64,000 nucleotides of DNA from Cinnamomum chago (lineage: Eukaryota; Streptophyta; Magnoliopsida; Laurales; Lauraceae). The stretch covers positions 77,775,501-77,839,500 of the forward strand of contig CP142452.1 in NCBI GenBank assembly GCA_038049695.1. The letters are read 5' to 3'. The notes under the pieces were generated by a model that saw nothing but the letters and a program-made list of their open reading frames with translations, had not been told where the DNA came from and did not search any database. This document shows, in pieces, positions 2,294 through 59,269 of the stretch. A program made the position numbers and the translations under genes. Position 1 is the stretch's first letter; each line of letters starts with the position of its first letter.

Positions 2294-2690
2294 CACTACT
2301 AGAAAATTGACTTTTAGCGGCCGCCACTTGCCGTCACTAAAAGTATATTGGCGGTCGCTAATACTCTTAAGCGACCGCTACGCGCTGGCTGCGAAAAGCT
2401 CGTGGCGGTCGCTAATACCTTTTGCGACCGCTACATGGCGGTCGCAAAAAATTAAAAAAAAAAAACTTTTGACTTTTAACGACCGCCTAATACTCTATAT
2501 AGCGGTCACTAATTTTTTTTTTTTTTAATTTTTAAGTATTAGCGGCCGCCAGAGCGGTCGCTAATACTCATCTGGCGGTCGCTAATACATTGGTTTTTTT
2601 TTTAATTTTTTAATTTTTTTAATTTTTGAAACTATTAGCGACCGCCAATAATGCTTTTAGCGACCACCACTGGCGACCGCTAAAGCTTTT
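2294..2690. repeat. CACTA left subterminal repeat region
   Basis: Short direct and inverted copies of GCGGTCGCTAATAC / GCGACCGCCA alternate with A- or T-homopolymer runs. At least nine can be picked out between 2320 and 2690. In the En/Spm family such arrays bind the accessory TNPA-type protein and are needed for transposition. Open frames called across this region are repeat translations, not genes. Confidence 0.75.
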
Positions 2691-3074
2691 TTTTTTTTTT
2701 TATAAAATTTTCGTTTTTTCTAAAATTCCTTGTTTTTGTACATGTACCTATACCTTTACCTGGATCTGAATATATACAAATACTGCCATCAATTAAAATT
2801 ACAAATAACAAAGCCTAAATATATACAACTACTACCATCAATTAAAATTACAAATAAAAAAAGAAAGTCTTATATTAATTTCATTCAAAACATTACAAAA
2901 GTTTCAATAAAATATATCCATTACATTTACAGGAAAAAGGAAAAAAAAATTTGCCGAGTGCCGTGGTATATCCGATGCTCTCAAACCTGAATAGAAAAAG
3001 AAAAATAAATATTAAAAGATAAGTATAAAAATTGGCAATTTATACTAAATATAAAAAATTAAGAATTACCATTA

Positions 3075-6000
3075 AAATTTTAACTTACGTTTCAACGTTA
3101 CGATCAATCCCGGAGTCGGAATCTCGTTCCATCAGTTCCTGCAAGTCATCAATGACTAGGGGCCCGTGCCCGTCAAGTTTCACGAGCAACAGACACCGTT
3201 TACTCATTTTAAGCGCCCTGAGGCTCGTTTTCTAAGTTTTAAGTTAACGTTCTAACTTAAACCTACGTTTCAACTGTACGATCAAACCGGGAGTCGGAAT
3301 CTCGTTCCGTCAGTTCCTGCAAGTCAGGAATGACTAGGGGCCCGTGCCCGTCAAGTTTCACAAGCAATGGAGCCCGTTTGCTCATTTTGGGCGCCCTAAG
3401 GCTCGTTTTTTAAGTTTTAAATTAACGTTCTAACTTAAACCTACGTTTCAACTGTACGATCAATCCGGGAGTCGGAATCTCGTTCCGTCAGTTCCTGCAA
3501 GTCATCAATGACTAGGGGCCCGTGCCCGTCAAGTCTCAACAGCAACGGACACCGTTTGCTTACTTTGGTCGCCCGGAGGCTCGTTTTCTAAGTTTTAAGT
3601 TAACGTTCTAACTTAAACCTACGTTTCAACTGTACGATCAATCCGGGAGTCGGAACCTCGTTCCGTCAGTTCCTGCAAGTCATGAATTACTAGGGGCCCG
3701 TGCCCGTCAAGTTTCAAGAGCAACGGACACCGTTTGCTCATTTTGGTCGCCCGGAGGCTCGTTTTCTAAGTTTTAAGTTAACGTTCGAACTTAAACCTAC
3801 GTTTCAACTGTACGATCAAACCGGGAGTCGGAATCTCGTTCCGTCAATTCCTGCAAGTCAGGAATGACTAGGGGCCCGTGCCCGTCAAGTTTCACGAGCA
3901 ACGGAGCCCGTTTGCTCATTTTGGTGCCCTGAGGCTCGTTTTCTAAGTTTTAAGTTAACGTTCTAACTTAAACCTACGTTTCAACTGTACGATCAATTCG
4001 GGAGTCGGAATCTCGTTCCGTCAGTTCCTGCAAGTCAGGAATGACTATGGGCCCGTGCCCGTCAAGTTTCAAGGGTCACGGAGCCCGTTTCCTCGATTTG
4101 GTCGCCCGGAGGCTCGTTTTCTAAGTTTTAAGTTAATGTTCTAATTTAAACTTACGTTTCAACTGTACGATCAAACCACCGAGAGTCGGAATCTCGTTCC
4201 GTCAGTTCCTGCAAGTCAGGATTGACTAGGAGCCCGTGTCCGTCAAGTTTCACGAGCAACGGAGCCCGTTTGTTCATTGTGGGCGCCCTGAGACTCGTTT
4301 TCTAAGTTTTAAGTTAACGTTCTAACTTAAACCTACGTTTCAACTGTACGATCTATCCGGGAGTCGGAATCTCGTTCTGTCCGTTCCTGCAAGTCAGGAA
4401 TGACTAGGGGCCCGTGCCCGTCAAGTTTCAAGGGCAATTGAGCCCGTTTGCTCGTTTATGTCGCCCGGAGGCTCGTTTTCTAAGTTTTAAGTTAACGTTC
4501 TAACTTAAACATACGTTTCAATTGTACGATCAAACCGGGAGTCGGAATCTCGTTCCGTCAGTTCCTGCAAATCAGGAATGACTAAGGGCCCGTGCCCGTC
4601 AAGTTTCACGAGCAACGGAGCCCGTTTGCTCATTTTGGGCGCCCTGAGGCTCGTTTTCTAAGTTTTAAGTTAGCGTTCTAACTTAAACCTATGTTTCAAC
4701 TGTACGATCAATCCGGTAGTCGGAATCTCGTTCCGTCAGTTCCTGCAAGTCATGAATGACTAGGGACCCGTGCCCGTCAAGTTTCAAGAGCAACGGACGC
4801 CGTTTAATCACTTTGGTCGCCCGGAGGCTCGTTTTCTAAGTTTTAAGTTAACGTTCTAACTTAAACCTACGTTTCAACTGTACGATCAAACCGGGAGTCG
4901 GGATCTCATTGCATCAGTTCCTACAAGTCAGGATCGACTAGGGGCCCGTGCCCATCAAGTTTCACGCGCAACGGAGCCCGTTTGCTCATTTTGGGCCCCC
5001 TGAAGCTCGTTTTCTAAGTTTTAAGTTAACGTTCTAATTTAAACCTACGTTTCAACTGTACGATCAATCCGGGAGTCGGAATCTCGTTCTGTCAGTTCCT
5101 GCAAGTCAGGAATGACTATGGGCCCGTGCCCGTCATGTTTCAAGGGTCACGGAGCACGTTTGCTCGTTTTGGTCGCCCGGATGCTCGTTTTCTAAGTTTT
5201 AAGTTAACGTTCTAACTTAAACTTACGTTTCAACTGTACGATCAAACCGAGAGTCGAAATCTCGTTCCGTCAGTTCCTGCAAGTCAGGATTGACTAGGGC
5301 CCGTGTCCGTCAAGTTTCACGAGCAACGGAGCCCGTTTGTTCATTTTGGGCGCCCTGAGACTCGTTTTCTAAGTTTTAAGTTAACGTTCTAACTTAAACC
5401 TACGTTTCAACTGTACGATCAATCCGGGAGTCGGAATCTTGTTCCGTCAGTTCCTGCAAGTCAGGAATGACTAGGGGCCCGTGCCCGTCAAGTTTCAAGG
5501 GCAACGGAGCCCGTTTGCTCGTTTATGTCGCCCGGAGGCTCGTTTTCTAAGTTTTAAGTTAACGTTCTAACTTAAACCTACGTTTCAATTGTACGATCAA
5601 ACCGGGAGTCGGAATCTCGTTTCGTCAGTTCCTGCAAGTCAGGAATGACTAAAGGCCCGTGCCCGTCAAGTTTCACGAGCAACGGAGCCCGTTTGCTCAT
5701 TTTGGGCGCCCTGAGGCTCGTTTTCTAAGTTTTAAGTTAATGTTCTAACTTAAACCTATGTTTCAACTGTACGATCAATCCGGGAGTCGGAATCTCGTTC
5801 CGTCAGTTCCTGCAAGTCAGGAATGACTAGGGCCCCGTGCCCGTCAGGTTTCACGAGCAACGGAGCCCGTTTGCTCATTTTGAGCGCCCTGGGGCTCGTT
5901 TTCTAAGTTTTAAGTTCACGTTCTAACTTAAACCTACGTTTCAACTGTACGATCAATCCGGGAGTCGGAATCTCGTTCCGTCAGTTCCTACAAGTCTTGA

Positions 6001-6990
6001 ATGACTAGGGGCCCGTGCCCGTCAAGTTTCAAGAGCAACGGACACCGTTTACTCATTTTGGTCGCCCTGAGGCTCGTTTTCTAAGTTTTAAGTTAACGTT
6101 CTAACTTAAACCTACGTTTCAACTGTACGATCAATCCGGGAGTCGGAATCTCGTTCCGTCAGTTCCTGCAAGTCATGAATGACTAGGGGCCCGTGCCCGT
6201 CAAGTTTCAAGAGCAACGGACACCGTTTGCTTACTTTGGTCGCCCGGAGGCTCGTTTTCTAAGTTTTAAGTTAACGTTCTAACTTAAACCTACGTTTCAA
6301 CAGTACGATCAAACCGGGAGTCAGAATCTTGTTCCGTCAGTTCCTGCAAGTCTTGAATGACTAGGGGCCCGTGCCCGTCAAGTTTCAAGAGCAACGGACA
6401 CCGTTTGCTCATTTTGGTCGCCTTGAGGCTCGTTTTCTAAGTTTTAAATTAACGTTCTAACTTAAACATACGTTTCAACTGTACGATCAATCCGGGAGTC
6501 GGAATCTCGTTCCGTCAGTTCCTGCAAGTCATGAATGACTAGGGGCCCGTGCCTGTCAAGTTTCAAGAGCAACGGACTCCGTTTCCTCGTTTTGTGCGCC
6601 CGGAGGCTAAATTTCTAGGTTTTAACTTAACGTTCTAACTTAAACCTACTTTTCAACATTACGAGTAATCCGGGAGTCGGATTCTCGTTCCGTCAGTTCC
6701 TGCAAGTAATGAATGACTAGGGGCCCGTGCCCGTCGAGTTTCACGGGAAACGGAGCCCGTTTCCTCGTTTTGGGCTCCCGGAGGCTAAATTTCTAAGTTT
6801 TAACTTAACGTTCTAACTTAAACCTACTTTTCAACATTACGAGCAATCCGGGAGTCGGATTCTCGTTCTGTCAGTTCCTGCAACTCAGGAATGACTAGAG
6901 GCTCGTGCCCGTCAAGTTTCACGGGCAACGAAGCCCGTTTGCTCGTTTTGGGCGCCCGGAGGCTCGTTTTCTAAGTTTTATGTTAAGCTT
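3075..6990. repeat. Satellite array: 22 units of about 178 bp inside the CACTA element
   Basis: A unit marked by GAGTCGGAATCTCGTTCC, then TTCCTGCAAGTC, then GGGGCCCGTGCCCGTC recurs 22 times. The TTCCTGCAAGTC landmark falls near 3136, 3315, 3495, 3671, 3850, 4028, 4208, 4387, 4566, 4741, 4918, 5098, 5276, 5453, 5630, 5810, 5987, 6165, 6343, 6520, 6701 and 6880. Two subtypes alternate through the middle: one with ATCAAACCGGGAG and GTTTCACGAGCAACGGAGCC, one with ATCAATCCGGGAG and GTTTCAAG. The last two units drift most. The array lies just downstream of the minus-strand transposase-like gene. No coding frame is maintained. Confidence 0.95.
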
Positions 6991-7036
6991 TTAATTTAAA
7001 TGTTGAAATCTTGAATTAAAAAAAATAATTTTACCT

Positions 7037-8796
7037 GGTCAGGATCACTCGAGCCTGCTAAATCATGACTGCCCTCTCCACCGAAGTCATGTCTAGCCAT
7101 GTGGCCGCTGCCAGCGTCTGGTGCCTGTAATTATTTATTATACAGTTAAAAACAATAAAAAAGACATAAGTATTGATGCATCAATTACATAATTGACAAT
7201 TTATATGTACAAATTTTTTTTTTTACTAACCTGAGTAGTGGGTGGTGGGTCTGAAGCAAGCGGGGCGCGACTCTGTGATAGACGACTCTCAAGCTCTGCT
7301 ATCTCTGCTCTCCACTCGGCCCTCATCTCTGCACTGATCTCTGCCCTGACCTCCTCTCTGATTGATGCCTTCATGGACTGCAGCAACTCCTGAACCTCCT
7401 CATCCGTACGGAAGCGTATGCCCTGGGAGGAGCTAGCACCGGATGACTCCGATCGCGTGATGTGCGAGCGTGGAATGCCCGTCCCATACGTCAGAGTGTA
7501 TCCAATGCCCATCCCGGCCAACGACGGAGTGGAATATCTCATCCCTCCGCGATGGCAATCTGCGCTCCTCCTCAGGTAACACCTCCAGGCGTGACTGATA
7601 CTGGGCCTGCGTAGTTCATTCATTTAGTATATTATCATGCATAACAAGACATACTAATAGAAACATAATTTAAACAGTTCAATATAAAAACTTACGAAGA
7701 TAGCTGTAACCTCTGGGTGGCGAGGATCTCGAGAACGCATCCAGACGGACATCCTATCTACCGGAACACCCTCAGAACGCAACTGTTTGGTGGAGAAATG
7801 TATTACTAGTATACTTTCATACAGAATGACAAAAACATAAATTAACTGTACGATCTAACTTTTTACCTCGTGGCGGACCTGGGTGATGTGTCGAGTCCCC
7901 AACCTATGTGCAGGACCCTGCAATGCGCGGTTCCGTGCATTCGTAGCAGACACTCTCTGTTTTCAATATTTATTAGTCGGAATTTTTGTTAGTTACGTTA
8001 GTTATTAGTAAAATGTTAAAATTAAAATAAAAAAGTACAAGTTTCTCACTTGAGCCTCCTCGCTCGACCAGTACCCGACGAGCTGAGTCCACTGATCAGG
8101 AAGAACGCCAGTCGGAACTCGCTGAAGTATGTCAGGCGCATCCTGATGAGGCTTCCAGTGCTGCGTCTTTATTTTATTTTTATGATCCTTCCACATCTTC
8201 CGGCACTTAGACATGCAAACTGGCCGGAAGAGCTCAGGACATGCCCTCAGATTGTCCTGAAAAGGACAAATAATTTTTCATTGACAAATAATTTTTCATT
8301 AAGTTATGGTTTAAATTGACACATCCTGAGGAAAAATGTTAAATTATTTCCTTGACCTGCTGCCAGATACGATCTAGCGTCGCCACCGGGAATGCGTCCC
8401 AATCATGTGTGGTCAAAGGAAATACATATGGATCCCGGACCATATGTCCTAACTGGCTGATGAGCTAGCGAGCATGAGGGCCCATCGGATGATATGACTC
8501 ATCAAACTCTACGACAATGGGATGGCCGGAATTCCATGTCCGGATCCCTCTAGCAGGGCCTCTCCCCCTGCTGGAAGATGGGCCCGTGCTCGTAGCACCT
8601 GTTTAAATTCGAGATAATCTAATTAAATTGAAATAAAATAATTTGCTAGAATTAAAATGTTTTAATTAAATAAACTTATACCAGTCAGTGTATCTCCTGA
8701 TGGTGGAGCTGAAGCACTGGACGACGCCGAAGCATCCACTGGAGTGGATGGACTCGGATGAGATGCCGATGGCATACTCCTCTTTCGTCCTGACAT
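7037..8796 (-). pseudogene. Ptta/En-Spm (transposase_24-type) gene of the CACTA element, decayed
   Basis: A multi-exon minus-strand gene starts at 8796 (MSGRKRSMPSAS...). Exon 1 ends at 8682 before GTATAAG. Exon 2 begins after an AG near 8597 and encodes a Ser/Gly/Arg-rich linker, then HMVRDPYVFPLTTHDWDAFP. Exon 3 (about 8255-8060) has KMWKDHKNKIKTQHW and VLPDQWTQLVGYWSSEEAQ, the most diagnostic part of the family. Smaller exons follow near 7957-7870 and 7783-7697. A C-terminal exon at about 7623-7217 encodes a Glu/Arg-rich coiled-coil-like stretch; a further short exon may lie at 7037-7127. Defects: an in-frame TAG in exon 2 near 8466, and a frame change in the 7500-7600 exon. In this family the protein is thought to be the accessory DNA-binding partner of the main transposase. 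Exon borders are by eye. Confidence 0.7.
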
Positions 8797-10505
8797 ATCT
8801 GTTCAAATGTTTGTAAGATAAATTTCATTAAACAAGATAATTGAAGTTAACATTTCATGTCAATGGATGGGAGAATGTTTGAAAAAAAAATAAAAAAAAA
8901 TTGGGAGTGTAAATATCATTTCTATTAAAGAAATAACAATGGCCTAATCAAACCTCCAGTTGGTTTGAGATTTGAAAAATCATTCATGTATGTATAAATT
9001 AAGGAAGGCCCAGACAACTCTAGACATTGAAAAGACCTGCGTTTTTCATTTCAAAGCAAGACCCCTTTTGGCCAATTAGCTAATGAAAAGGGGTGATCTG
9101 TCTTCAATCAGTCCAAATTATCATCCTAACCAAAAGATTAAGCAGCTGCAATCTGGGACTAACAATAGTTAAAAATAAGACTAGCACCCAAAAGTTACAT
9201 TTGACCATTCCTCCATGTGGAACCACTTCTCTCCATTTGGCAACGAGTTGTTGTTGAGTCGACTCAATTACTAGCTGAGTTGCCTCTACTCTTCTTCTTT
9301 TTTTTCCCAAATGTGGTGGCAATGTTCAAAAAATATCAGTTGATGCAGATCATTATGGCTGATGTGAAATGACAGAGAATATCAACACAAATAATTGACA
9401 TCATATGGGCTTCACTTGAATCACATGGGCATACAATCTTATGACGAATCATATCCGTTCACAGTTCACACTCACAACCATCTCATTAACCAGCACTCTT
9501 CCTTAATTCAACACTAATCTGAATTTTGCTAACACTTGGATTGCTCATATAAAATCACATAAACAGAAGTTGCTTCATCCAAAAGTTGAAAATTGTACAA
9601 CTATGAAGTTATCAAATGAAGGATTCGAAAGGAGCTGTCCCATTTCTTTTTACTTGCTTCAGAACCCAAAACTAATCAAAACTTACTTTCTTGGTTCCAT
9701 ATGAGTGCGAATGATGATGACAGGACAAAAAAAGAAATAAATTAATAATAATAAAATGGGGCCCTTCTAGTAAGCACATGAGCTCACTTCCTTGTGGGGG
9801 CTGGCATTGTCCATGCCTGACCTCAGACCTGGAAAAATTATGCCAAGACTGGCCCTTGGGCTTTTTAGATTAAAATAGGAGATCTCATAGGACAACAAAT
9901 AAATGTACTAAGGAAAGATCCATAGAAACAATCTTGTGTTTCTAATAATAGTGGCAATAATTGGTCCCTCTATAGATGAGAAAGAGAGGAGGAAAAGAAT
10001 GAGAAAACAAATGGATTCTACACTTTTTTCAAGCTAAGAACTTGAGATCAGTGCAGAATCTGGTAGTCCAACTCGTTTGCCTGTATTGACATATCAAAGT
10101 CATTGGAATATGGCAGTTGAACATTCATATCATCAACCTAAATTGTCTCATCTTGATGCTTCCTCCTTCCACACATAACCCTTTTCTCCTTTGCCAATAA
10201 AAATGTAGGAATAAGTTTTATATTTTTTCTCTTTTCAAAGAAAACAGGCTAATAGCTATTGTCTTTGAGACACCCAACAGAATATGTAGGAACCTTTGAA
10301 ATAGAATATAGATAGGCACCATTATAGGCTATGTCGGTCCTTGTAATGAAAGTTGCATTTGTAGATAGTATGTCCTTGTAATTTAGCTCTTTTCTACATG
10401 TGGGTTTTCTTTTTGATGGGCTTGTCCAATGGGAGAACATAACTAAAAGAAAAGATATTCAGCTCCTTGAAAGAAGGCTTGCATTGCTCCTTGAAAGAGA
10501 GCTTG
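8797..10505. other. CACTA interior without recognisable genes
   Basis: AT-rich non-coding DNA. Short open frames such as 9104-9322 (minus) and 10249-10440 (minus) lack recognisable motifs. There is no transposase_21 homology here, which matters because in a complete CACTA element the main transposase gene would be expected upstream of the accessory gene in this orientation. The content may be captured or nested DNA. Confidence 0.5.
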
Positions 10506-10889
10506 CTAAAAAGAGAGGATAATTTTCTCATATGGAAATTGGTTTTCCGCCTCTTCTTGGTAGAGGACCATAATGCCAATCAAGATTGGTTGGCTCTCGA
10601 GTCCACCCAAATTCTGGTTGAGCCTTTTTTGATGACTCATGAATTTGGATTTGGCCAAAATTCCACCCAAAGACTTTGTTTGTCTTTGTAAGATCCTCTG
10701 GCTTCGTTGCCTGAGGCTCCTAACAGCTTGTGCTGTAGGTGAGTTTTGTTGTTGGTTTGCAACAGAGTCTTCATGCTGCTGGTTTGCAGCTAGATTTCCT
10801 TGCTGCTGGTTTGCAGCTAGATTTCCTTGCTGCTGATTTGCAGCTGGATATTGCTCCATGGGAGCTGGTTCTTTTTTATCTTTGCTCAT
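10506..10889 (-). CDS. Hypothetical Gln/Asn-rich protein with short tandem repeats
   Basis: A 127-codon open frame begins MSKDKKEPAPMEQYPAANQQ. It carries imperfect repeats of about nine residues (NLAANQQQG), encoded by a 27-bp DNA repeat around 10757-10850, then a basic Arg/Gln segment (VRSLRQRSQRILQRQ). The C-terminal part has no recognised domain. It lies inside the CACTA element on the same strand as the transposase-like gene. It could be an exon of a captured gene or a chance frame. I do not recognise it and assign no function. Confidence 0.3.
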   Translation of the reverse strand: MSKDKKEPAPMEQYPAANQQQGNLAANQQQGNLAANQQHEDSVANQQQNSPTAQAVRSLRQRSQRILQRQTKSLGGILAKSKFMSHQKRLNQNLGGLESQPILIGIMVLYQEEAENQFPYEKIILSF

Positions 10890-12016
10890 TGCTCAGATAA
10901 GTGGTTCTCTTTGAAAAGTTTCTTCTTATGAGAAAGACGGGGTTCTCCTTCTAGGTAACCCTTTGCTTGAATATTTAAAATGGGGAAAGAGGGTAAACTC
11001 ATAGTTCAATCAATCTATTAAATGTCTAAGTGTATTTTACTTTGTCATGTTGGAAGAGAGCCTTATTAGGTAGAATTTAGGAGACTGACATTGTCAGCAA
11101 AATCACAGTCATTCCAATTTAGGATTTGGATATCAAGTGCTGGGGGAGGATCCGACTGAGTCTTGTGCTATAAAATCTAAATTTGAGTCTTGTGCTATAA
11201 AATCTAAATTTAAAAGAGTTCTTGAGAAGCCATGGATGGGTCCTTAATTACCTTCCCTGGGAAAGGTTGTGGCCCATTAAGCTCCTCTCAAATCTCTTAT
11301 TTTACATGCGGAGGACATTAAATGTCCGTCTTCCAACAGCTGATAGAGCTCCTCCATCTACATTCTGTAGCCTCTCTAAACTAAACGAACTCTAATATAA
11401 ATGACAATAAAAATGTCAACTTGGAATTAATCATAACAAAACATAGGATTGGGACAAGTTATAAACAAACTAATCTTTAAATCTACAACACAATTTTCAA
11501 ACATGGATTCACAAAAACAACAAAAATCATCAACCATTTAGAGCAATCTTAAACCTAATTGCCTGGGCCTAAGAGAAGTATCATACAAGAGATGTGAAGT
11601 TTAAGACCTATAGATGATAGGAAAGAAAACACCTTTTTTTTATATAAACAAATACCAGTTACTACTAACTAATTTTTCAATCATTAATATAGTCATTTGG
11701 TTATATTGATAAGTACTTCTGACTCAAATTAAATCTATCAATAAGTACTTCTGACTCAAACTAAATCAGTGCATGTGAAAGATTCCTAATTTTCAAAGAC
11801 CGCCATGTATTTCTTGTAGAGAACCTAATAGCTCAATCTGTCCTTGCTAGAAATAACAGGCCTTGTTGCCCACAAAACCCATCCATAAGGGTAACATGGG
11901 CTACTGGAAAATCATCCATCTTTTAATTCATATAAATACCTTATATTTAATTTATATTTATTTCTACAAATGTAGTGGGTGGACATACCTGTGCTAGGCA
12001 CGGGTTAATGTGCTAG
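10890..12016 (+). mobile_element. Possible nested Helitron-like insertion, 3' end at about 12016
   Basis: At 11985-12016 an imperfect hairpin (ACCTGTGC, loop, GCACGGGT) is followed eight bases later by CTAG and then T. That is the layout of plant Helitron 3' ends: GC-rich hairpin, short spacer, CTRR, insertion before T. The elements ending at 16402 and 44015 share this hairpin type. The 5' end is not identified, so the start given is only the edge of the neighbouring ORF. No Rep/helicase coding sequence is seen. Confidence 0.35.
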
Positions 12017-13117
12017 TGCTATTTGATGGCCCATCAGATGGTTTCCATACAAATCAACATGCTTGAGATGAGATCTTGGATCACCTCATTCAAAAAAACA
12101 AAGGAACATGCAGAGTGGGTACTAGCTAGAGGCAAAGCAGAAAATGTTTCATATCAACCTCTCATTGACCCACACAGGATAAACCACCAAAAAATCCTAC
12201 ACCTTCAAGGAGCAAGCACATCTTCCTACATAATTGCAGAATTAAGATAAGAATCCAATGGAAAAGGTGACCAGATCAGTAGATAATGAAGAATCTAATT
12301 TCTGGTTGATTAATTCTCACTTTCTCTATAAGAAGATCAGTAAAGAGCATCCGAATGTGAGCTTAAAGCAAAATTCGTACTAGGACTACAAACTACATCT
12401 AGAATAGAGAATAACCAAAGATAAGCTTACATATTTTTACCAGAAGGACTGAGATACACCAGTGTTTTCCCAGCGTAGGCATGTTAATAATGACAGTAAC
12501 ATGATCAATTATTTCAATAAATAATTAGAAACTAGATGTTGGTGGTCACCGAATAACAGATCATGGTGGGGCATTTAGGGGTTACTTAAGAAACCCACTG
12601 ATAAATCTCCGGTGAGTCATATCCCATGGGGTTAGGGACTTGAGGAGTGTGAGCATTCACAGAGCATTCACACCCTTGCTCTGTGTTGAAAAACGAAAAT
12701 CCCAAATCCCGTTCTTGACTCAACCCCCATCGGCGATGACTCCACTCACCACTCCACACAAGATGAAAAAAATCTACAATCTCTAAAAGAAAATTCAAAA
12801 TCAAAATCATGAGAAGATAAACGAAGAAGAAAGGGGAAGAGAGAGAGAGATTTTAGGGTTTCGTAGCAAACCTGGAGTGGAGAAATGAAAGGGGAAGAGA
12901 AGAAAATCAACCGGAAAACAAATCCGCACATGGAGAAAGATTTGACCTTTCCGCCGAGAGAGATCTTCGATCTCAATGGAGAGTATTTCGGAGAAGGGGC
13001 AACGGCTCCTGTTCCAGCACCTCGTCAGCAACGGCTCCGGCGCGCGGGAGCGAGGGCACAGGGAGAGGGAGAGGGAGGGAGAGGGAGGGAGAGCGAGCGA
13101 GGGAGAGAAATAGAGAA

Positions 13118-13153
<36 letters not shown>

Positions 13154-13319
13154 GAAAAAATCGCTGGGAAGGAAGTCTCTAAAATTGCTAGGTTGAGCGC
13201 GGGAGCAGGGCGGGAGAAAGGAAAAACAGAAGTGGGATGAGGAAAACTTTTAGAGTGGTTGCTGATGACTTGCGGTCGCCCGCCTTTTTGGTGAGCGAAA
13301 ACTCATTTCTCTAGTAGTG
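12017..13319. other. CACTA right arm with GA microsatellite
   Basis: Non-coding right arm of the CACTA element. It contains a purine-rich tract (GAGAGGGAGG repeats from about 13060) that becomes pure (GA)n near 13118-13148. By orientation this side should hold the promoter of the minus-strand genes, but no TATA box stands out. A short frame at 12885-13121 runs into the GA tract and is not supported as a gene. Confidence 0.5.
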
Positions 13320-14093
13320 ATCACAGCTTTATAAAAGATCCTCTGAATCATGAAACAACTGTAAAATTCTTCCTTTGTGGTTGTTGGAAGCAAAGTAGCA
13401 GTCATTGATGACAGATGGGGTCCGGTAGTCTTTCTTTTAAGTGAAAGCGGGCTCTCCTGGGAGGAAGCTCTATAACCATAGAAAGCTGGCTTTTTATTTG
13501 AAAATTTGTTCTCTTTGAATGACGCCTTGTAAGGCAAGGCCGGTGAAATAAATAGCAGGTTTGAATTACAAGTGACAGGTTCTCTTGACCCAACTCCTAC
13601 TGTCTACTTCCAATTCATTGAATCCTCTTGTGTGAATGTGGAAAGACATCATCAATAATGAAGATTCTGCAGTCTTTTGACAGGAGAGAAGGGGAGAGGC
13701 CGTTGGTGTGAACCCATGTGCTTCTTTATTGAGGGTCTTGGGGCCAACCTAACCCCAGCCACACAAACCAGAAGAGGAATTTATAAGACTACAACTACAA
13801 CAAATTAATTTAATCCCAAATTTCTATTTCATTAAAGATAGCCAATGACTATTTATATATATATATATATATGAAGCGAAGTGATTTTGAAATCACTTCC
13901 AATTGATTTTGACCAATTTAATTTAGTTTGACCATACCATTATACCACAAAGCATCGTTTTGCTAATAGATATCAACAAAAACATAAAATTAGTTAACGA
14001 GAAAGGGACCCGGCGCCCCCACTTTGGAATATTGACCGTTAGTTGGAATTTATCTACGAGGTATTTATAAAAATAACTATATTTTTAGAATAT
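13320..14093. other. Intergenic DNA between the CACTA element and the Helitron-like repeat
   Basis: No gene is supported. A (TA)n microsatellite lies at about 13854-13873. A 28-bp segment at about 13785 (starting TTATAAGACTACAACTACAA) recurs exactly at about 16405, directly after the Helitron-like element, so the two copies bracket that element. The sequence after the CACTA target duplication does not resemble the RLP flank left of the CACTA element. Confidence 0.5.
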
Positions 14094-16402
14094 TGACCCC
14101 TATAAATACTGTTGTTATTATCTTCATACTTATGCATTATACTTTAAGCATAGATGATCAAACTTTTGAAATAACTATTTTATATGATTTCGTATATAGT
14201 CATTAATTTTCTATGACAACCATTTTACAATAAAACTAAACTCAAATGAATATATAATATATGAATTAATTAACAAAAATAATAAGTTTCATATTAATAA
14301 GAAAATGACAATATTATTGAAAAAAGAAAAACTCGCGACAACAGCGTGGAGCTAAAGAGGAGGCGGAAACTTTCCCTGTAACGATGTGCTGCAATGCACG
14401 CTTGCCGATGGAGAAAGGGTGAGTCTGGTTTTTTTCTTTTTTGTGTGTGTGGCTTCAAATATTTTTATAAATCGTGATGTAAATGGAGTGAAATACTATG
14501 ATAGACCTCATCTATTAAAAATCACAATCATTAAGGCAAACATCCTTGCTATTTATGGGATACCTCAAATTCTCACCTCATTCCGGGTTATTTTTATGGT
14601 CAAATTCATTCTCTGATAAAAAAATACAAAACATTGGAGTTTTCCTTCTTTTTTTTTTCTTTGTGATTTGGACTCTCCATCATGCCTTTTGTCTATTAAG
14701 AAACTCCCAATATCATCATATTTCTATCAAGCAATAACATTTGAGTGTTAATGGGTCCCAGTGTCTATAAGTGACACTAATCTAAGGAATTTCAAGTATT
14801 TTTGTTTCTTCTGAATATATGTTTTTTTTTTCTTTTTTTTTTAGAATGTGAAATGCCGATTTCTGGGTTGTCTGGTTTATTTAATCCTTAGTCTTTTTTA
14901 TTTAATCCACTCTCAGTTCTGGGTTGTCTGCTTTCCTTTTTATCTATTGAATTTGATTGTACACTTTTTTTTTAAGAATGCGAAACTAATGGTAAAAGGA
15001 ATTTCCAATAATATTGGTCTATCTAAGTAAAGAATTAAGCTCATTCTTGTTATCATCATTTTCTACTTTCTCCAATATAATTATATTTCTTTATGTCAAA
15101 AGAGAATTTTCATTTTTTCCATTCATTTACTTTTAAGCTCATTGCATTTGTTTAAATCAACTTTAATAATTTGTTTTTTCTTTGTGTCTCTTTTTAGTAC
15201 CGTCTCATGTCTCATTTGCATGTTTATTTTAGATTAGTGTTCAACTCATTTTAAAATGTGAGCACCTTAAGACAATTGGTGCAATTATTAAACATTTCAA
15301 TTTGAGAGGTAAACATTTTTTAATTCATTTAGTCTTAAGGTGCAATTATTAAACATTTCAATTTGAGAGGTAAACATTTTTTAATTCATTTACTTTTGAG
15401 TTCATCATATTTTATTTGAGCAATTTTAGTTATGTCATTTTAATATGATTTATACAAAAGAATTATCATTTTAAAATTTCTATAGATTTGCAATATTTTT
15501 ATGGTTTGTATTTGTATGGTTTTCATAGATTGTGAGTTTCTTTTTTCCCCTTTTTTTGTTTCAACTTTTGGGTATTGGGTTCTTCTTGGTTTTTTTTTCT
15601 TTTGAATAACTTTTTATCATGAGATTTTCTGTGAATTCTCATTTTTCTGTTCTATTTTTTAAATCTTTTTAATGCTTATCATTATGAGTTAATTATTTAT
15701 TTTACTTCCTTTGTGTTCTTTAAGTTCTCTTTGTGAAATCTTTTTATGGATTTTTTTTTTGTGGCTTTAGATTTCCATTTTTGAGTATTAGATTATCATA
15801 AGTTGGTTTGGTTATTCTAAATTTCTTTTATCATTGTATTGTCTATGAATCTTTGTTTATATATATTTTTATAGCCTTTTTAATAAAATTTATTTCGTTT
15901 TATTTTGTATTTCTTATATTATAATTTCACACTTGTGATGAGTTTTTAGTTTTTTTTGTATGATGTTTTTTCATGAATTTGTGAGTTCTTTTGTCTTTGC
16001 CCCTCTGTGTTCCATTTTTTAGTTTTTTTTTTCTCATGAGTGTTTGATTCTTTTAAATTGCTTATATTATTGAGTTGATTATGGATTTTCATTTCTATGT
16101 TTTATTTCTGTGTGTCTTTCAAATTTCATTGGATTTGATTTATAGTTTATATTGTTTGTTTGTTTTGATTTTGTTTTTTAGTTTTCTTTATCATTAATCT
16201 TCAATTTTCATGGGCTTGTGTTTTTTTTTATTTTAATTATATAGTATTCAGTATTGAATTCTTATGGACTTTTTTTTTCTTTTCCCTCTCTCAGACTAAA
16301 ACATTTTGCATTTAATTTTAAAGAAACTGATCATAATTTTTTTTTATAAATTTTAATATTATAATTATATTGCCCGTGCTAAGCACGGGCGTGTTTTTCG
16401 AG
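14094..16402 (+). mobile_element. Non-autonomous Helitron-like element, copy A
   Basis: A 2.3 kb AT-rich, T-strand-biased element without coding capacity. It ends with a hairpin GCCCGTGC-TAA-GCACGGGC at about 16373-16391, then GTGTTTTT and CGAG (CTAG in the sister copy at 44015) before T, matching the plant Helitron 3' layout. Its 5' part (14094-14600) is shared, more diverged, with 30010-30560. A tandem duplication of about 61 bp lies at 15265-15390 and is present in the 42006 copy too. The exact 5' end (expected TC after A) is not resolved. MULE or other non-coding repeat is the alternative. Confidence 0.5.
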
Positions 16403-17544
16403 TTTATAAGACTACAACTACAACAAATTAACTAGGAAACTCAATCATACCAAAGTAGTAAACCTAATCCTTATCACATCTTAACTCTATCTCAAAATTA
16501 CTCAATCTTAATGTAGGAAATTTACTCCCAAAAGTAAATATTAATCCATTGACCCAATTACAAATAAACCCAACTATTTTTCAATATTCTCAACAGGTTG
16601 TAGATTAGCCATCTATTAAATCTCAGCTACAGCAGACATTCTTCATGATGCATTTAGAGGCCCTGGTACCAACAAATGAAATAAAAAGTAGCTTTGATAT
16701 CAACTGACATAACCCTAATCACCAAGAAGAAACAAAGGTTTAGAGGATGATATGATGATAGCTTCATGCATATGGACTTGCTTCCTGAGCCCTTCATACA
16801 GCTTTCATACAAAAGTGAAATGGAAGCGGAAACATGACGCATGCAACAATCACACCAATTCCTAGTCTAAAATTCTCTCCTTCTCACACCAACAATCATA
16901 GAGGCCTGTGGGTTTTAATGGATTGGTGCATTGATTTGAGTCTGCATTCCGTTAGCCAGGTTTTCTTGTTTTGGCCATAGTTTTTTCAGCCCTCTTTTCC
17001 TCCTTTCTTTTAGCATGATGCAGGCTGCCATATCCCTCAATTTTAACTTAGTAACTTTGAAAAGTTAATACTTACAAGTTATAATTGATTGACTGATTTG
17101 GTGGACTCTCACGTGGGCCATGTCCAAGGGTGCACTGTTTAATTCCTCAAATCTAAGGGTTAAAATAGATGGTCAAAATAAAAAAAATAATCATGGGACA
17201 GCTAATTATCATAATCTTGCTAGAAATGTAATGTGGCAAAGGTTTTTGATGTCTAAACTCTAATCCCCAACCCCATCTTTTAGTTCTTGGATCTATCTGA
17301 AAGCCATGTTTCATCAAATGGAGGCCAGTTGTTTATACTATCCAGCATTGATCTGATGAGTTCGTGGTCGATTCGGGATCAACTTATGCAGCAAGCATGC
17401 CCTATAATATGGATTAAATTGTAGCAAAAAAGTTTGGAACATGAAGTCCGTGGTCAGGATTGATGTTGTAACCCTTGAGATTTTATTTATTGTATCGAAT
17501 TTCCAGAATGATCAATCTAGCTTAACATGTTTTCTATTCTCTAG
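16403..17544. other. Upstream/intron DNA of RIBA3 pseudogene copy 1
   Basis: Unique-looking DNA with no further exon. I looked for the conserved segment that normally precedes the DHBPS domain and for a transit peptide and found neither, so the 5' part of the gene is absent from this copy, or lies beyond recognisable distance. The homologous stretch in copy 2 is 44016-45184. Confidence 0.5.
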
Positions 17545-20500
17545 TTTGTGATTGCTGTAGATGATGAAAATGGTGATGATGAATCTGATCATGGCAGCAT
17601 CTTTTGCTAGTCCTAAGGCTTTGGCATTTATGATGAGGCATGGTTCTGGAATTATCTCTGTTGGGATGAAGGAAGAGGATCTGGAAAGGCTGATGCTACC
17701 ATTGATGTCAACTGGCAGTGAGAATGAGGGCCCATCTGCAGCAGCTTATACAGTGACAGTGGTATGAATTTCGGTTTATTTTGTTCGGAGCACTAGTACC
17801 AAGTTCAGCCAGAGATAGCACATACCAATTTCTGTTTATTTTGTTTATGCCATTTGAAAAATTGACTTGAAAGTCTACACACAGACTGGTTGTGTCGTAT
17901 AAATTGAACTAAAGGTTGATTGATGGATAGGATGTTCATTTGTGAACAGTTTGCCACCCAAAAATCACCCTCATTAGATGATCATTCATCATAGCTGTCT
18001 AGTCAAGTGCCTGCAACTTGGGCTCACATTGTGCCTGCTTGTTTGTGTTGGAGGGGTGCAAAGGAAAACAGCTTGAATGAAGTTCACGAGACTGTTGGTA
18101 AAGTAAAGCCTCACATCCCACATCGCCTAAGTAGAGACTTTGGCAAGGCTTTATATATACCTGTTTGGGCCTTCCACCTATGAGCCTACGTTCTTGGGTT
18201 GGTACTCTACTTGAGTTTTGACCTTTTTCTTAGGGCAATATCTGTCAACTATAATTAATACTGATCTGCCTCTAGGATAATATGAACTCAGTTTCTTGAC
18301 ATTGATGAGTACTTCAACTTGCAAATTGAAGTGTATCCTTCCAATACAATGGCCATTCAAGTATAAAATTGAAAACATAAGGATGCTGTCAATCAATTGT
18401 GGTAGATAGGGAGAAAATAGCAAACGAAGTTTTTAGATGCCTCAACTGGGGGCTTTTCAACCTTTTTTGTTGAGTATTCTGGTCTTTCATGTAGTGTGTT
18501 TTTTTTTTTTTTTGAAAAACTGAATACAAATATACAATGATGGTTGATTACTGATATTCAAGATCATGTCATGAAGTCATGAAGTCATGACTCAGTTATG
18601 TCTAATCAAAATTTAGGCTGAGTTGAGAAAGTCTGATCAGCGAAGGCTTTATGAGTTTCTGAAATTTGTTTGATTTTCAACCTCATCAGGATTTGAAAGT
18701 GGGAGTATCCACTGGAGTGTCAGCCTGTGATAGGGCAAGGAGCCAAGGACTATTCTTGCTCTTTCATCTCTTGATTCTAAGCCAGAAGATTTCAGAAGAC
18801 CAGGCCATGTTTTTCCTCTCAAGTATAGGAATGGTGGTGTTCTAAGGAGAGCTGGTCACACTGAGGCTTCGGTTGATTTAGTTTCAATGGCGGGTCTAAG
18901 GCCAGTATCTGTTCTTTCAGCTATTGTTAATGCAGAAGATGGCTCTTTGGCTGGTCTACCTTATTTGAGAGTACTAGCTGGGGAGCACAGCTTACCAATC
19001 ATCTCCATCACTGATCTGATAAGGTGAGTCATGGGGTAAGATATTCAGTTGGGTCTGAATTTAAACGCAGAGTTATTTGGCAGGAAGTATGTGATCATAT
19101 CTTAAGCCTTGAGTGATCTGAACTGTTTATTGCATGGGCCCAATGGCGGATGGATGATACTCCAAAATATCTTCTTGACGCCAGAGTTCTAATTTATACT
19201 TCTCAATTTATATCCTGAAAGAGAAGGTTAAGAAAAGAAACAGATGATTTTTTTTTTCTTTGAATGGTGAGAGAAGCAAATATTGTGTGGCTAGGATCTA
19301 GTAACTTGTGTTAATTTGGAGGCAAAGTCTATTATCAGTGGGGTTTATAAAATAAACGATCTGGGTAACCGAACCTTGGGTTTGTCATGTACTAACTCAA
19401 GGCCCAAGGATGTGGCAAATGTCTTCAGCTCAAGGATGAGAATAATTCTTCTTGCTCACAAGGCATCATAATGCTTCCTGCATTGTTTATAGGATGTCCC
19501 AAATTTTGTGAAGAAAATGCAGAAATACCATTCTGATATGGTCCTGAATTATTTGACACTTCAAATGTATGGGACAGTGGACAACCATCATTTTCCAAAA
19601 ACATGCAGATGGCTTGCAAAAAACACACAGACTGTACAGTGAATAATCAGCATTCTTTGTTTATCCATTTTGCCTAGACATCAAACCAATCATGGTTCGG
19701 AGTACATATAAACGCAACTTAAGTGCGTGTATGTATGGTTGAGGCAGTGTGTTCATGACGCATCCAGATCTTTTGTTGACTCAGTTTACTCGGTGTGCTA
19801 ATATCAGTCTCATGTGGATAAGATTTTCTGCCATTTCTGCCTCCACATAAAATAATTTCTAAGCCAATTTGTTCTAACCAAACCAGTGCGAGCTCTTAAG
19901 GAAGTTTTACACAGGTTATTTCACTTCCATGTGCCACATGCACTAAACCTATTGCCTAGAATATCAGATGAAGTGCTGTTTTCAGTGTTGCAGCTGTAAG
20001 CTACATATTCTACAGTTATATGCGATTTTAGACAATTCTTTCTATAGACCCTTCAATGTGGACTTTAACTATTGCAATTTTCTGTCATTTCGCAGTAACT
20101 AGCATGTTGCAATGATCTAAAGGACAATTCTATCAATGAGCATTATTTTGCTGTAATACTTGTGTAGGTATCCGAGAAAGAGGGAGAAGCTGGTGGAAAG
20201 AACTGCTATTGCCCACTTGCCGACTAAGTGGGGACTATTTCAGGCTTACCGTTACCGCTCAAATTTAGATGGAACAGAGCATGTGGCTGTTGTGAAGGTA
20301 ATGCCCGTTATACAATCTCTCTGTCTGACTCAAAAAGTGGTGCAACTGGATAACAATAAATCTCAGTTACTTATATTTTGGCAGAACAGATTTTTGATTG
20401 GTCAATTGCCTGGAGGATTGGGGATTCAGAATTCACATGGATATTTTTCTAAGATATATCATCACTAAGTTAAGATCATTTCAATTCGAGTTGAACGTGA

Positions 20501-21805
20501 GTGCCATAGTCGGTGAAATCAAATAGAATTGGATTCACAAAACCGAACGGAATAAACCTACAAATTTCAAATTGAATCGAACTATTCTGAAAAGAGAACA
20601 AAATTCATTCCTCAAACTGAATTCATTTGAAATGGCTGGACCAAAAAAATGAAACAAATAAAACTACCCAAAATGAATTGACAAACTGAGTCCATGGCAA
20701 ATACCGAGCAATTTGAATACGAACTACTTGAATAGTGGACCAGGTAACTCTTAGAACAACATTGATTTGGAAACTGTTCTTTTACCTTTCCTATTTTATC
20801 ACACAAAAAGATTAAAACACACATTTAGTGCATTATTCTGATGAAAAATGAAAAATTTATAGTATCACTGGATTGCCAAGTGAATTCAGGTTCTTCCAAC
20901 TGAGTTGATGAACTGGATTTGCTCTATTTTGAACTGTTTGAGGGAAATGAACTGGGGATGGTTCAAAGACTAGTTTGCAGTGTGTCCCTAACAGCTTTGA
21001 ACGAGGCAACTAATGTTTCAGGTTCAAAAGGACTAGTTTATCCTGCTTGGCTTTCACTTTTTGGAGATCTAGAGCATTCCACTGGTGGACCAATCATTAA
21101 TTTATAACAGAATGAATATCCCTATTCGAAAGTTTCATTTTGAATGTGTTAGCCCATTTTTTCTTGGAACACATTTTGTCCAATCTTCCCATTCTCTTTA
21201 GAAAGGCTGGTTACGCTCCCACATCTCCCATTAGAGGAAGTTTTCTAGTGCTGTGCTCTGACTGAAAAGGCTTCCACTGGAATAACAAGTTTGGATCACA
21301 AGAAGATGATGTTTCTTTTAATTGGACATCATACAATATATTTCATAGCATCATGTACTGATTTGAACCCAAACCAAGCCTTACCTACATCATATTTGCC
21401 TTAGATTCATGCGGATTCTTCCTAACATTGGGAATCAATGGTGATCTCCTATTTGCATTGAGCTATTTAATTTCATATGGTTCAAGTGGCAATAGTTTCA
21501 TTCAACAGGGAGACATTGACAATGGGCAAGATGTTCTTGTCAGAGTGCATTCTGAATGTTTAACTGGAGACATATTTGGATCTGCTCGGTGCGATTGTGG
21601 CAATCAGTTAGCCTTGGCCATGCAACTAATTGAGCAGGCTGGTAGAGGTGTGCTTGTATACCTCCACGGTCATGGAGGAAGAGGGATTGGATTGGGTCAG
21701 AAACTCCATGCGTACAACTTGCAGGATCAAGGACACGACACAGTAGAAGCTAATTTGAAACTTGGGCTAGCCGCAGATTGTCGCGAGTATGGAATTGGTG
21801 CTCAG
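17545..21805 (+). pseudogene. RIBA3: RIBA3-like riboflavin biosynthesis pseudogene, copy 1
   Basis: Four exons are visible: 17545-17761, 18690-19023, 20168-20297 and 21509-21805, all with AG/GT borders. Exons 1-2 give the DHBPS-like domain (FVIAVDDENGDD, GIISVGMKEEDLERL, STGVSACDRA, RRPGHVFPLKYR, RRAGHTEASVDL). Exons 3-4 give the GTP cyclohydrolase II domain ([33 protein letters not shown] with the three zinc cysteines). SVGMK and TKWGLFQAY point to the plastid RIBA3 branch, whose DHBPS half is inactive in Arabidopsis. Defects: an apparent 5-bp deletion in exon 1 near 17574 and an 8-bp insertion (AGCCAAGG) in exon 2 near 18740 each shift the frame; both are shared with copy 2. Here the conserved YLRGHEGRG reads YLHGHGGRG. 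The 5' exons and the 3' exon (normally the GVRTMRLMTNNP segment) are not found. Confidence 0.88.
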
Positions 21806-22996
21806 GTAATTGATCAAAATGCAAAAGTATTACCTCTAGCAATATTTTTGTAATTTATTATGAACCGTTCTCCTTTGTGTTAACCATGATCTCAATTCTA
21901 CACTTGAAGTTGTGTTTAGTTGATCCTTATCATCGTTGTAATCATCTATGTAGAGTTGGCTCTGTGACTTCTACTTTTCCATTCAACCCTAATATTTATT
22001 TTCAGTTATATTTTTAGTAGTGACATGGTCCATCATGTCTTTCTTCAATATTCTCTCTCTTTTTTCTAGTTTCTTGACAATTTTACTCTTCAGAGCACCA
22101 TGTAGTAGCCATTTCCGCTCTTTTGAGTGCCTGCCAAATCATTACAAACATTATTCCTTGGTTTCTTTCCTGAAGGTTTCCATATATCTGTTTAAGGAGT
22201 GTTTGGATTTCTTTAAAATCCAGTTGCCTGCAAACTTTGGTAGATTGCATGTTATCCATTCCAGTGTGCAACAATTTTGGTTCAACTTCGTATATCCAAC
22301 TTTTCTGCCCCAAATCAATGACTATGAATTGTGGTATTCTATGACTTGAATTTGTTTTCTTGAAATGGAGGAAAAAAAGCACCTTGTATTCTCTTCCCAT
22401 CTCAAGCATATGGTAGATTGGGTAATCATGTTTTCACCAAATTGTTTAAAGGATCCCAATTTATATAGAAAAGGAAATAGAAGAAGAAACTTCAAATTCA
22501 ATTTCTGTCCTAATATCTCGAACAACATAACAAACATCGCGAGCACAATTAGCAAGCAATTATAATGTGAGGAATTCCTTTAACCAATTCATTTATTCTA
22601 ACACTGTGCAGTGGTCTCTATTCCATTTGTTTTTTTTATATTCTTACTGTAGTTTCAACTCTGGAAAACAATACAAATACGCGAGCTCACTCTCATGTTT
22701 GGCTATTTCCTCTTTTAGTCACCAACTCACTAATATTCCATCCACTACCTTGAGGCCATAACATTCATTTGAGGAGTACACTCCATGACTTGATATCATT
22801 TATGATTTGCCAAAAGAAACACACTTTCATGAACGACATAGTATGTGATGCGTGCTTCTATTGTTGTTGTTATTGAATATTTTTTTCTTCCCTTCCTGTG
22901 CGAACTTTGTAATTTAAAGTGGTACATAGATACCTACAGAGAGAGGATTTTTTTTTTTTTTGTCATTTGCATGAACTTAATTTCATTGTTGAAACG
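21806..22996. other. Downstream of RIBA3 copy 1, no gene supported
   Basis: Starts as the intron after the fourth RIBA3-type exon; its first 390 bp match 63669-64000. No exon for the C-terminal GCHII segment is visible before the RLP unit begins near 22997. Several 60-110-codon frames on both strands at 22020-22565 overlap one another and show no domain or codon signal. Confidence 0.55.
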
Positions 22997-42005: not shown

Positions 42006-44015
42006 CGATGTGCTACAATGCACGCTTGCCGATGGAGAAAGGTTGAGTCTGGTTTTTTTCTTTTTTGTGTGTGTGGCTTCAAATATTTTTATAAATCGTG
42101 ATGTAAATGGATTGAAACACTATGATAGACCCCATCTATTAAAAATCACAATCATTAAGGCAAACATCCTTGCTATTTATGGAATACCTCAAATTCTCAC
42201 CTCATTCCGGGTTATTTTTATGGTCAAATTCATTCTCTGATAAAAAAAAATACAAAATACTGAAGTTTTCCTTTTTTTTTTTTTTGTGATTTGGACTCTC
42301 CATCATGTCTTTTGTCTATTAAGAAACTCTCAATATCATCATATTTCTATCAAGCAATAGCATTTGAGTGTTAATGGGTCCCAGTGTCTATAAGTGACAC
42401 TAATCTAAGGAATTTCAAGTATTTTTGTTTCTTCTGATTATATGATTTTTTTTTCTTTTTTTTAGAATGTAAAATGCCGATTTCTGCGTTGTCTGGTTTA
42501 TTTAATCCTTAGTCTTTTTTATTTAATCCACTCTCAGTTCTGGGTTGTCTGCTTTCCTTTTTATCTATTGATTTTGATTGTACACTTTTTTTTAGGAATG
42601 CGAAACTAATGGTAAAAAGAATTTCCAATAATATTGGTCTATCTAAGTAAAGAATTAAGCTCATTCTTATTATCATCATTTTCTACTTTCTCCAATATAA
42701 TTCTATTTCTCTATGTCAACAAGAGAACTTTCATTTTTTTTCCATTCATTTACTTTTAAGCTCATTGTATTTGTTTAGATCAACTTTAATAAATTTTTTT
42801 TCTTTGTGTCTCTTTTTAGTACCGTCTCATATCTCATTTGAATGCTTATTTTAGATTAGTGTTCAACTCATTTTAAATTGTGAGCACCTTAAGATAATTG
42901 GTGCAATTATTAAACATTTCAATTTTGAGAGGTAAACATTTTTTAATTCATTTAGTCTTAAGGTGCAATTATTAAACATTTCAATTTGAGAGGTAAACAT
43001 TTTTTAATTCATTTACTTTTAAGTTCATCATATTTTATTTGAGCAATTTTAGTTATGTCATTTTAATATGATTTATACAAAAGAATCATCATTTTAAAAT
43101 TTCTATAGATTTGCAATATTTTTATGGTTTGCATTTGTATGGTTTTCATAGATTGTGAGTTTCTTTTTTCCCCCTTTTTTGTTTCAACTTTTGGGTATTG
43201 GGTTTTTCTTGGTTTTTTTTCTTCTTTTGAATAACTTTTTATCATGAGACTTTCTGTGAGTTCTCATTTTTCTGTTCTATTTTTTAAATCTTTTTAATGC
43301 TTATCATTATGAGTTAATTATTTATTTTACTTCCATTGTGTTCTTTAAGTTCTCTTTGTGAAATCTTTTTATGGATTTTTCTTATTTCTTTTGTGGCTTT
43401 AGATTTCCATTTTTGAGTATTAGATTATCATAAGTTGGGTTGGTTATTCTAAATTTCTTTTATCATTGTATTGTCTATGAATCTTTGTTTATATATATTT
43501 TTATAGCCTTTTTAATAAAATTTATTTCGTTTTATTTTGTATTTCTTATATTATAATTTCACACTTGTGATGGGTTTTTATTTTTATTTTTTATGATGGT
43601 TTTTCATGAATTTGTGGGTTCTTTTGTCTTTGCACCTCTGTGTTCCATTTTTTAATTTTTTTTCTCATGAGTGTTTGATTCTATTAATTGTTTATATTAT
43701 TGAGTTGATTATGGATTTTCATTTCTATGTTTTATTTCTGTGTGTCTTTCATATTTCATTGGATTTGATTTATAGTTTATATTGTTTGTTTGTTTTGATT
43801 TCGTTTTTTAGTTTTCTTTATCATTAATCTTCAATTTTCATGGGCTTGTGTTTTTTTTTAAAATTATATGGTATTCGGTATTGAATTCTTATGGACTTTT
43901 TTTTTTCTTCCCTCTCTCAGACTAAAACCTTTTGCATTTAATTTTAAAGAAACTGATCATAATTTTTTTTTATAAATTTTAATATTATAATTATAGCACG
44001 GGCGTGTTTTTCTAG
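42006..44015 (+). mobile_element. Helitron-like element, copy C (duplicate of copy A)
   Basis: Closely similar to 14382-16402, including the internal ~61-bp tandem duplication (about 42890-43015). Its 3' end retains CTAG followed by T at 44012-44016 but has lost the left arm of the terminal hairpin, whereas copy A keeps the hairpin but has CGAG. The 5' portion present in copies A and B is absent because the segmental duplication starts inside the element at 42006. Confidence 0.55.
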
Positions 44016-45184: not shown

Positions 45185-45256
45185 CTTGTGCTTGCTGTAG
45201 ATGATGAAAATGGTGATGATGAATCTGATCATGGCAGCATCTTTTGCTAGTCCTAA

Positions 45257-45689
45257 CTTGGGAAGGGGGGGAAAATGGGGGGGAGGAAAAAAAGGGGGGA
45301 AAGTGGAGGGAAAGTGCTTTTGGGGGGTGTTTGGGAAGGGGGGAGGGAAAATGGGGGGGAGGAAAATAGAGGGAAAAAAAGTGCTTTTTGCCTCAAAAAT
45401 TTTCCCCCCAAAACAAGGGGGAAAATGAGGGGAAAGTGGGGAGAGAGGGGAGAAATGACTAAAATGCCCTCCTCCCTTTATTTGAATTTTTTTCAAGAAC
45501 AAGGGTAAAATAGTCTTTTTTAATGTACTTCACTAAAAACAAAATTATACTTTTTCACTTTCCTTCCCCCTACTTTTTTACTTCCCAAACAAGAGGAGGG
45601 AAAATTAATTTTTCCTCCCCTCCCCTTCATTTTCCTTCCCCCTCAAATTTTCCCTCCCCTCCCCTCCCTTCCTCCCTTCCCAAACGGAC
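45257..45689. mobile_element. MITE-like element, 433 bp, inserted in a RIBA3 exon
   Basis: Copy 1 reads straight through AGTCCTAAGGC at the matching point (about 17590), so the borders are exact. Target duplication CCTAA lies at 45252-45256 and 45690-45694. The left arm is G-rich (CTTGGGAAGGGGGGG) and the right arm C-rich (CCCTTCCCAAACGGAC). The GTTTGGGAAGGGGGG motif recurs internally near 45328, hinting at a partial internal duplication. Related to 826-1241. No genes; Gly/Lys-rich frames are compositional. Confidence 0.85.
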
Positions 45690-59108: not shown

Positions 59109-59269
59109 CGGTCATTACCAAGACCATGGAATGCATCACACCTCAAGAAATTCTATTTTTAGTCTGCACTTGTACAATGCTCTTGGATTTAATAGAGATA
59201 CACCCGTTTTTCAAGTTGAGGCAATCTGGTAGTCGATGGCAGTCTAGCAATGGTGTGAACGCGGATGAT

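Follow-up and report, generated by a model that had tools for sequence, protein, structure and literature searches.

We identified, in a 64-kb stretch of the Cinnamomum chago genome (C2:77775501-77839500 of a 1.06-Gb, 14-contig genome; hereafter, the window), an 11,026-bp CACTA element at positions 2294-13319 that carries a satellite-like tandem array. The genes of this element are on the minus strand; the terminal inverted repeat at its 3' end (2294-2305, plus strand) reads CACTACTAGAAA, and the one at its 5' end (13308-13319, minus strand) is the inverse of CACTACTAGAAA with one difference. The target-site duplication ATC lies outside each terminus (2291-2293 on the left and 13320-13322 on the right), so both ends were found and CACTA termini enclose the array on either side, as the original prediction had it. 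Subterminal repeats with GCGACCGC / AGCGGYCGC motifs, recognized by motif counts (9 and 6 on the side of the terminal inverted repeat and none within the array), occupy approximately positions 2314-2690. About 600 bp beyond the element, at 1689-1700, there is a second terminus-like sequence, CACTACTAGAAG, which may be the remnant of an older CACTA element.

Two full relatives of the element were found (L029/L033, 15,464 bp, and L016/L034, 17,159 bp, both with the target-site duplication TTT), and the full copies L033 and L034 encode the TnpD-type transposase typical of the CACTA superfamily (Transposase_21), together with DUF4218 and Transpos_assoc; the 15,464-bp relative has another frame that encodes DUF4216. 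The window copy itself has the terminal inverted repeats, the 3-bp target-site duplication, and the TnpA-type gene with subterminal repeats that also define this superfamily, but neither tnp2 / Transposase_21 nor the other three domains were seen in it, and we therefore read it as a member of a non-autonomous CACTA subfamily. A terminus is present at the expected distance on the 3' side in 22 of 25 copies of the family, four of these 22 being near-identical; L017 and L022 lack it, and the sequence of L012 did not reach the terminus position. By sequence comparison, the interior of the non-autonomous subfamily (8856-13047) is unmatched in the two full-length copies, the match to which resumes at 13048-13153 in a weak, GA-rich form. 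Pieces of this interior match other loci at 88-100% identity, six of these loci with the array too, and the interior may stem from capture of host sequence or of other mobile DNA. A 128-aa open reading frame rich in a repeated NQQQGNLAA motif and no Pfam match lies within it (10506-10892, minus strand).

The array occupies positions 3081-6997. TRF, run on the window, reported a repeat at 3082-7000 with a period of 178, 22.0 copies and 90% matches, and cutting at a fixed anchor yielded 22 head-to-tail units of 177-181 bp (starts 3081-6820) with an average pairwise identity of 0.897; the predicted tandem array of 22 units is thus confirmed by both approaches. The alternation of two subtypes in a dimer of about 357 bp, also part of the prediction, held as well: it is strict across units 5-16 (3793-5929; dimer of about 356 bp), a range adopted from that claim, where diagnostic site 31 (AAACC/AATCC) reads ATATATATATAT, and sites 106, 136 and 142 alternate in step with site 31 across units 5-15. 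The contrast of even minus odd offsets is +0.026 in units 5-16 (P=0.002; P=0.02 for all 22 units), and without a preset stretch, the best 12 units begin at unit 4 (P=0.001), with the largest contrast among the 25 arrays tested. The peaks of pairwise identity expected at offsets 2 and 6 fared unequally. The peak at offset 6 was found, whereas similarity at offset 2 is above chance over the 22 units (P=0.014) but not inside units 5-16 (P=0.17), where the even-odd contrast tests better than offset 2.

At offset 6, the mean identity in units 5-16 is 0.940, compared with 0.904 for shuffled units (P=2.5e-4); for all 22 units, P=0.0026, or 0.04 after correction for the 12 offsets tried. This excess arises because units 6-9 (3970-4684) match units 12-15 (5041-5751), which repeat them at a spacing of 1,067-1,071 bp with an identity of 0.93-0.97 in one comparison and 0.95-0.98 in another, the adjoining pairs 5/11 and 10/16 being at 0.92. 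Both copies of the block are marked by a 23-mer that occurs twice in the entire genome, both times in the window array, 1,067 bp apart. The motifs originally quoted as common to distant units are seen by eye in the sequence, and of the seven block motifs that we tried, four, including the core of the marker, are absent from 24 other arrays, the remaining three being present in some of these. Hence, the predicted six-unit repeat of about 1,068 bp is real as an excess of identity, but the apparent hexamer is a single duplication of about four units rather than one of a series of hexamers. In terms of higher-order structure, units at a fixed offset are more alike than by chance in the window copy, in a weak form that amounts to one extra block; the same block recurring many times and common to several arrays was not found, there being two block copies with a private marker.

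The gene next to the array is TnpA-like. A reading joined by hand from its putative exons, all on the minus strand, matches PF03004 (Transposase_24; E=2e-19), and three open frames tried singly gave no match to PF03004. These putative exons are located at 8050-8252 (edges approximate), where the Transposase_24 match begins, at 7231-7606 (5' edge uncertain) and, as the penultimate one, at 7035-7124, ending in a donor-like CCAG|GTAAAA (7035) on the array side. The minus strand then continues through the array to TTCTTTTTCTATTCAG|GTTTGA (2986), where a putative last exon would start with GTT TGA (Val, stop; 2981-2986) after a splice-like acceptor, TTTTTCTATTCAG. The GT-like donor is present in 25/25 copies (four of them near-identical), with a one-base shift in L022, and the acceptor AG is in place in 22 of the 24 copies that cover that side, L009 and L011 reading CAAG. 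Because it is flanked by these conserved donor-like and acceptor-like sites, the array probably occupies the final intron of this TnpA-like gene, with a single codon left before the stop; a coding array was set aside, the unit length of 178 bp being no multiple of three. The window exon at 7231-7606 contains one extra base, absent from the 21 other copies compared, and the frame of the window copy is therefore shifted. No purifying selection was detected in the two array-side exons across 22 copies (41/146 synonymous where a fraction of 0.289 is expected, P=0.93, 5 new stops, and 6/38, P=0.10; all three frames were run for the larger exon, 7231-7606), which fits decaying copies and gives the intron no support either.

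A genome search with the tnp flank gave 40 scored matches from 397 first-look candidates, and the twenty copies fetched from these were the best-scoring ones after the window, which makes them the closest to it and no random sample. All 20 fetched copies hold the array and tnp sequence; in 19, the tnp flank adjoins the array at 94.8-97.6% identity, and in 19, the flank on the side of the terminal inverted repeat follows it, whole or partial. In L012, an insert of about 6.5 kb of other DNA, close to the tnp edge, separates the tnp flank from the array, and the sequence ends inside the array, with 12 units within the sequence obtained and 15 implied by the edges. The 19 complete arrays consist of 14-42 units, and three are interrupted by 1.1-2.2 kb of other DNA. 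Genome-wide, the gene-side edge pattern of the array is present at 77+108 = 185 places and the acceptor-side pattern at 129+139 = 268 places (control 0 for each). Among the edges listed, 132 right ones, spread over twelve contigs, and 100 left ones form 58 pairs, 49 of which enclose whole 178-bp units within 12 bp, with 10-46 units per array (median 23). The array is an internal module common to a dispersed CACTA family, and the many CACTA copies with variable unit number that had been expected were found. The longest in-register edge pair among those listed, with 46 units, is C3:111643338-111651651. A 23-mer from the unit occurs 1,508 times in the genome (control 0) and is carried by 86 of the 484 units of 21 arrays and by 14 of the 26 units of one recent copy; scaling the count by the fraction of units that carry it gives a very rough total of 2,800-8,500 units, or 0.5-1.5 Mb, to which strongly diverged units would add.

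The array moves whole, with the number and order of the units kept. Four copies on three contigs (L029-L032) are 99.95-99.99% identical over 6.3-7.5 kb, including 26 units each; their homology ends at the terminus, their flanks differ, and at least 11 loci among the edges listed share their exact edge spacing. These near-identical, recent copies bear out the proposal that the transposon is moving the array. Another two arrays, L026 and L027, have different bases before the terminus and look like sister elements because a stretch of A-type units and, near the left edge, a short duplication are common to both; L027 has a 2.4-kb step inside the array.

After insertion, the unit number changes in place. 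L036 contains 32 units and L029 contains 26, with identical flanking bases (100/100 and 95/95) and identical units 1-8 and last six; their best alignment has one six-unit insertion, between units 9 and 14, with a mean identity of 0.9996. The arrays L009 and L011, 43 kb apart on C8, have 22 and 28 units, respectively, with 1,611 bp of the outside flank, compared on the left only, at 99.75% identity and the tnp side at 99.4%, and the pair can be read as one insertion that was later duplicated. Their units differ more than their flanks, and within L011, units 11-15 are 0.989-1.0 identical to units 17-21. The best-fit identities between the units of the two arrays drop to 0.82-0.91 at two units; the difference is no single clean event, and the position of the gap is ambiguous. 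In both cases, which are two only, the difference is six units, a whole multiple of the local period (6, and 3).

The internal patterns differ between copies. The best offset among the 25 arrays is 6 in six, 3 in five (four of which are one recent copy), 2 in three and 1 in eleven, with a tie of offsets 1 and 2 in L026; a best offset of 1 indicates similarity of neighbours and no longer period. In 24/25 arrays, the best offset has P<0.05, corrected for the offsets tried and not for the number of arrays, and L011, with offsets 6 and 12, comes nearest to repeated higher-order blocks. The even-odd contrast over the best 12 units is below P=0.05 in three of the 25 arrays, namely, the window (0.001), L020 (0.011) and L011 (0.047), and the alternation in the latter two goes with their six-unit period; in L029-L032, the subtypes alternate by eye, without a significant contrast and with a period of three. 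Alternation and period were each considered as a trait of the family and rejected, the former because it is strongest in the window copy, with 3/25 arrays below P=0.05, and the latter because the best offsets differ between copies. Given that the six-unit markers are private and that alternation is strongest in the window copy, neither is a property of the satellite itself. When three near-identical arrays are left out, 240 of 510 units have their nearest relative in their own array. Between copies, similarity is highest for the two units next to the tnp gene (0.936 and 0.912, compared with 0.881 for the middles), a pattern expected if array ends seldom take part in exchange.

These observations are very probably explained by a non-autonomous CACTA element with an inherited satellite-like array in a fixed place between the TnpA-like gene and the 3' subterminal repeats, which undergoes block movement and then changes in place. 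The transposon copies the array whole to new loci, where local out-of-register exchange (between sister chromatids or homologues), repair synthesis or slippage could copy multi-unit blocks, the same data fitting exchange, slippage and repair alike. Such block events would give each element copy its own period, and the copy-specific period would be the pattern that was originally noticed in the window. We found no separate function for the array, which is best regarded as a passenger that is tolerated.

Alternatively, the higher-order structure might have been made elsewhere, in an existing satellite (for example, a centromeric one) of which the element then captured a part. Outside their arrays, L029 and L033 contain nothing that matches the 178-bp unit over more than 17 bases (E=0.55), a result that fits capture and on which we rejected derivation of the unit from the element itself. 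A search with the unit yielded 150 listed places of 376 matches (40 scored of 2,551 candidates), which form 39 clusters, the widest of 7.3 kb; 38 of these are within 6 kb of the tnp edge, the left edge or the window-type interior of the family, the sole cluster without a tie to it being C5:30561507-30564205. On C1 to 115.4 Mb, the widest cluster among the places listed is 4.9 kb, and 20 of the 29 clusters of the 23-mer have a listed edge within 9 kb; the other nine are small (1-3 hits each), with no listed edge nearby. One cluster without a tnp edge (L035, part sequence) has a CACTA end that is mutated, followed by nine units, of which the final one is truncated, and then by other DNA. Given the untied C5 cluster and the nine small C1 clusters, small free remnants of the unit outside CACTA elements are possible, but no long independent array was seen among the places listed, in an assembly that may lack centromeres. 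Long satellite arrays have reportedly been described for the repeats of Ogre-type retrotransposons; none was found for the Cinnamomum unit. Centromeric satellites form long arrays, in most cases a single one per chromosome, whereas the places listed are dispersed short arrays; together with the estimated total of 0.5-1.5 Mb, nothing found points to centromeres, and the centromeric link made in the original prediction is not supported. The companion idea that the transposon seeds free satellites fares no better, with 38 of the 39 listed clusters beside CACTA sequence of the family. The same lack of a longer or free array argues against capture, as do the periods that vary between copies and the private markers of the window array, so that the order of units in the window would have arisen after any capture. 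Although capture is favoured by the authors for the CACTA array of Chenopodium, in the passages of PMC8978399 on that element, we consider it rather unlikely as the source of the structure seen here.

The array could also serve the element, through transposase binding, as a target of methylation or siRNA, or by control of the splicing or expression of the TnpA-like gene. It is present in all copies examined, which were found via the array or the adjoining flank, it is CpG-rich (75 per kb, compared with 15 in 14-34 kb of the window), and the two tnp-side units are the most alike between copies. However, shared edge units can also come from rare exchange at array ends, the subterminal motifs are missing from the array, and the unit number varies from 10 to 46, all of which makes a role of this kind improbable. 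That the order of repeats is an artefact of assembly, through collapse or false expansion, is still harder to accept and, in our view, very improbable: most contig sizes shown are multiples of 2,500, which suggests scaffolded pseudomolecules, but the duplicated units differ from each other by about 2-7% and therefore are not one stretch pasted twice, 49 of the 58 listed arrays end in register, and at least 11 loci agree on one spacing. Arrays of 2-8 kb fall within the span of long reads.

Higher-order repeats have mostly been studied in centromeres, where the record of past changes is overwritten and comparison of independent copies is difficult. Here, the same kind of array is planted at many places, and some of the copies are near-identical and recent, with known neighbours, so that individual gains and losses can be followed step by step. 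Because the block is rearranged differently in different copies, the family gives many side-by-side examples of satellite evolution, and the parallel arrays form a set for studying how higher-order repeats form. Speculatively, and we think this unlikely, transposition itself could drive the pattern, if breaks left by excision inside or beside the element were mended from the sister copy, with earlier multi-unit blocks setting the register, and whole blocks were gained or lost per cycle (six units in both pairs that could be compared). In that case, CACTA copies at hundreds of loci would act in parallel as a machine for making new higher-order repeats, and the family would be a replicated natural experiment on how such repeats start.

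CACTA elements that carry satellite-like arrays are of an already known kind. The nearest precedent, and of the same kind, is the CACTA-like element of Chenopodium quinoa, in which, according to the passages of PMC8978399 on this element, a 171-bp monomer is present in 32.5 copies downstream of the coding sequence and close to the 3' end, the monomers being compared here by description. The array is named there in elements of four scaffolds, has a dispersed FISH signal and is called captured, or possibly generated, by the authors; a word search of the accessible text found no mention of its higher-order structure (PMC8978399). In other articles, to the extent of their passages on these repeats, looser parallels are described. 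Ensat1 and Ensat2 with Atenspm in Arabidopsis similarly link an En/Spm-like element to satellite arrays, but the Ensat monomer shares sequence with its element, whereas the Cinnamomum unit is without a counterpart in its element (PMC10794571, PMC9659126). The Jozin tnp2 fragment and the satellite CficCl-61-40 of Chenopodium again connect a CACTA element with a satellite, but there, the array is seeded by a transposase-gene piece of about 40 bp, whereas the window array is a separate, non-coding module (PMC7320549). The Cg_HINE Helentrons of the Pacific oyster, from a different superfamily and kingdom, have satellite-like central repeats dispersed by transposons, like the window array (PMC7492417), and Ogre-type elements, which, unlike CACTA, are retrotransposons, contain internal tandem repeats that have been proposed as a source of satellites (PMC7004042, PMC9659126). 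No higher-order structure inside a CACTA-borne array was found in the literature searched, with thin coverage of subscription journals. What is added here is many comparable arrays and two cases in which the unit number differs while the surroundings are nearly identical.

Elsewhere in the window, large direct duplications in several broken blocks, with about 95-99% identity, connect 14382-22194 with 42006-52587 and 62991-64000, and a tandem repeat with a unit of about 52-58 bp and up to 10.8 copies is located at 59264-59874.
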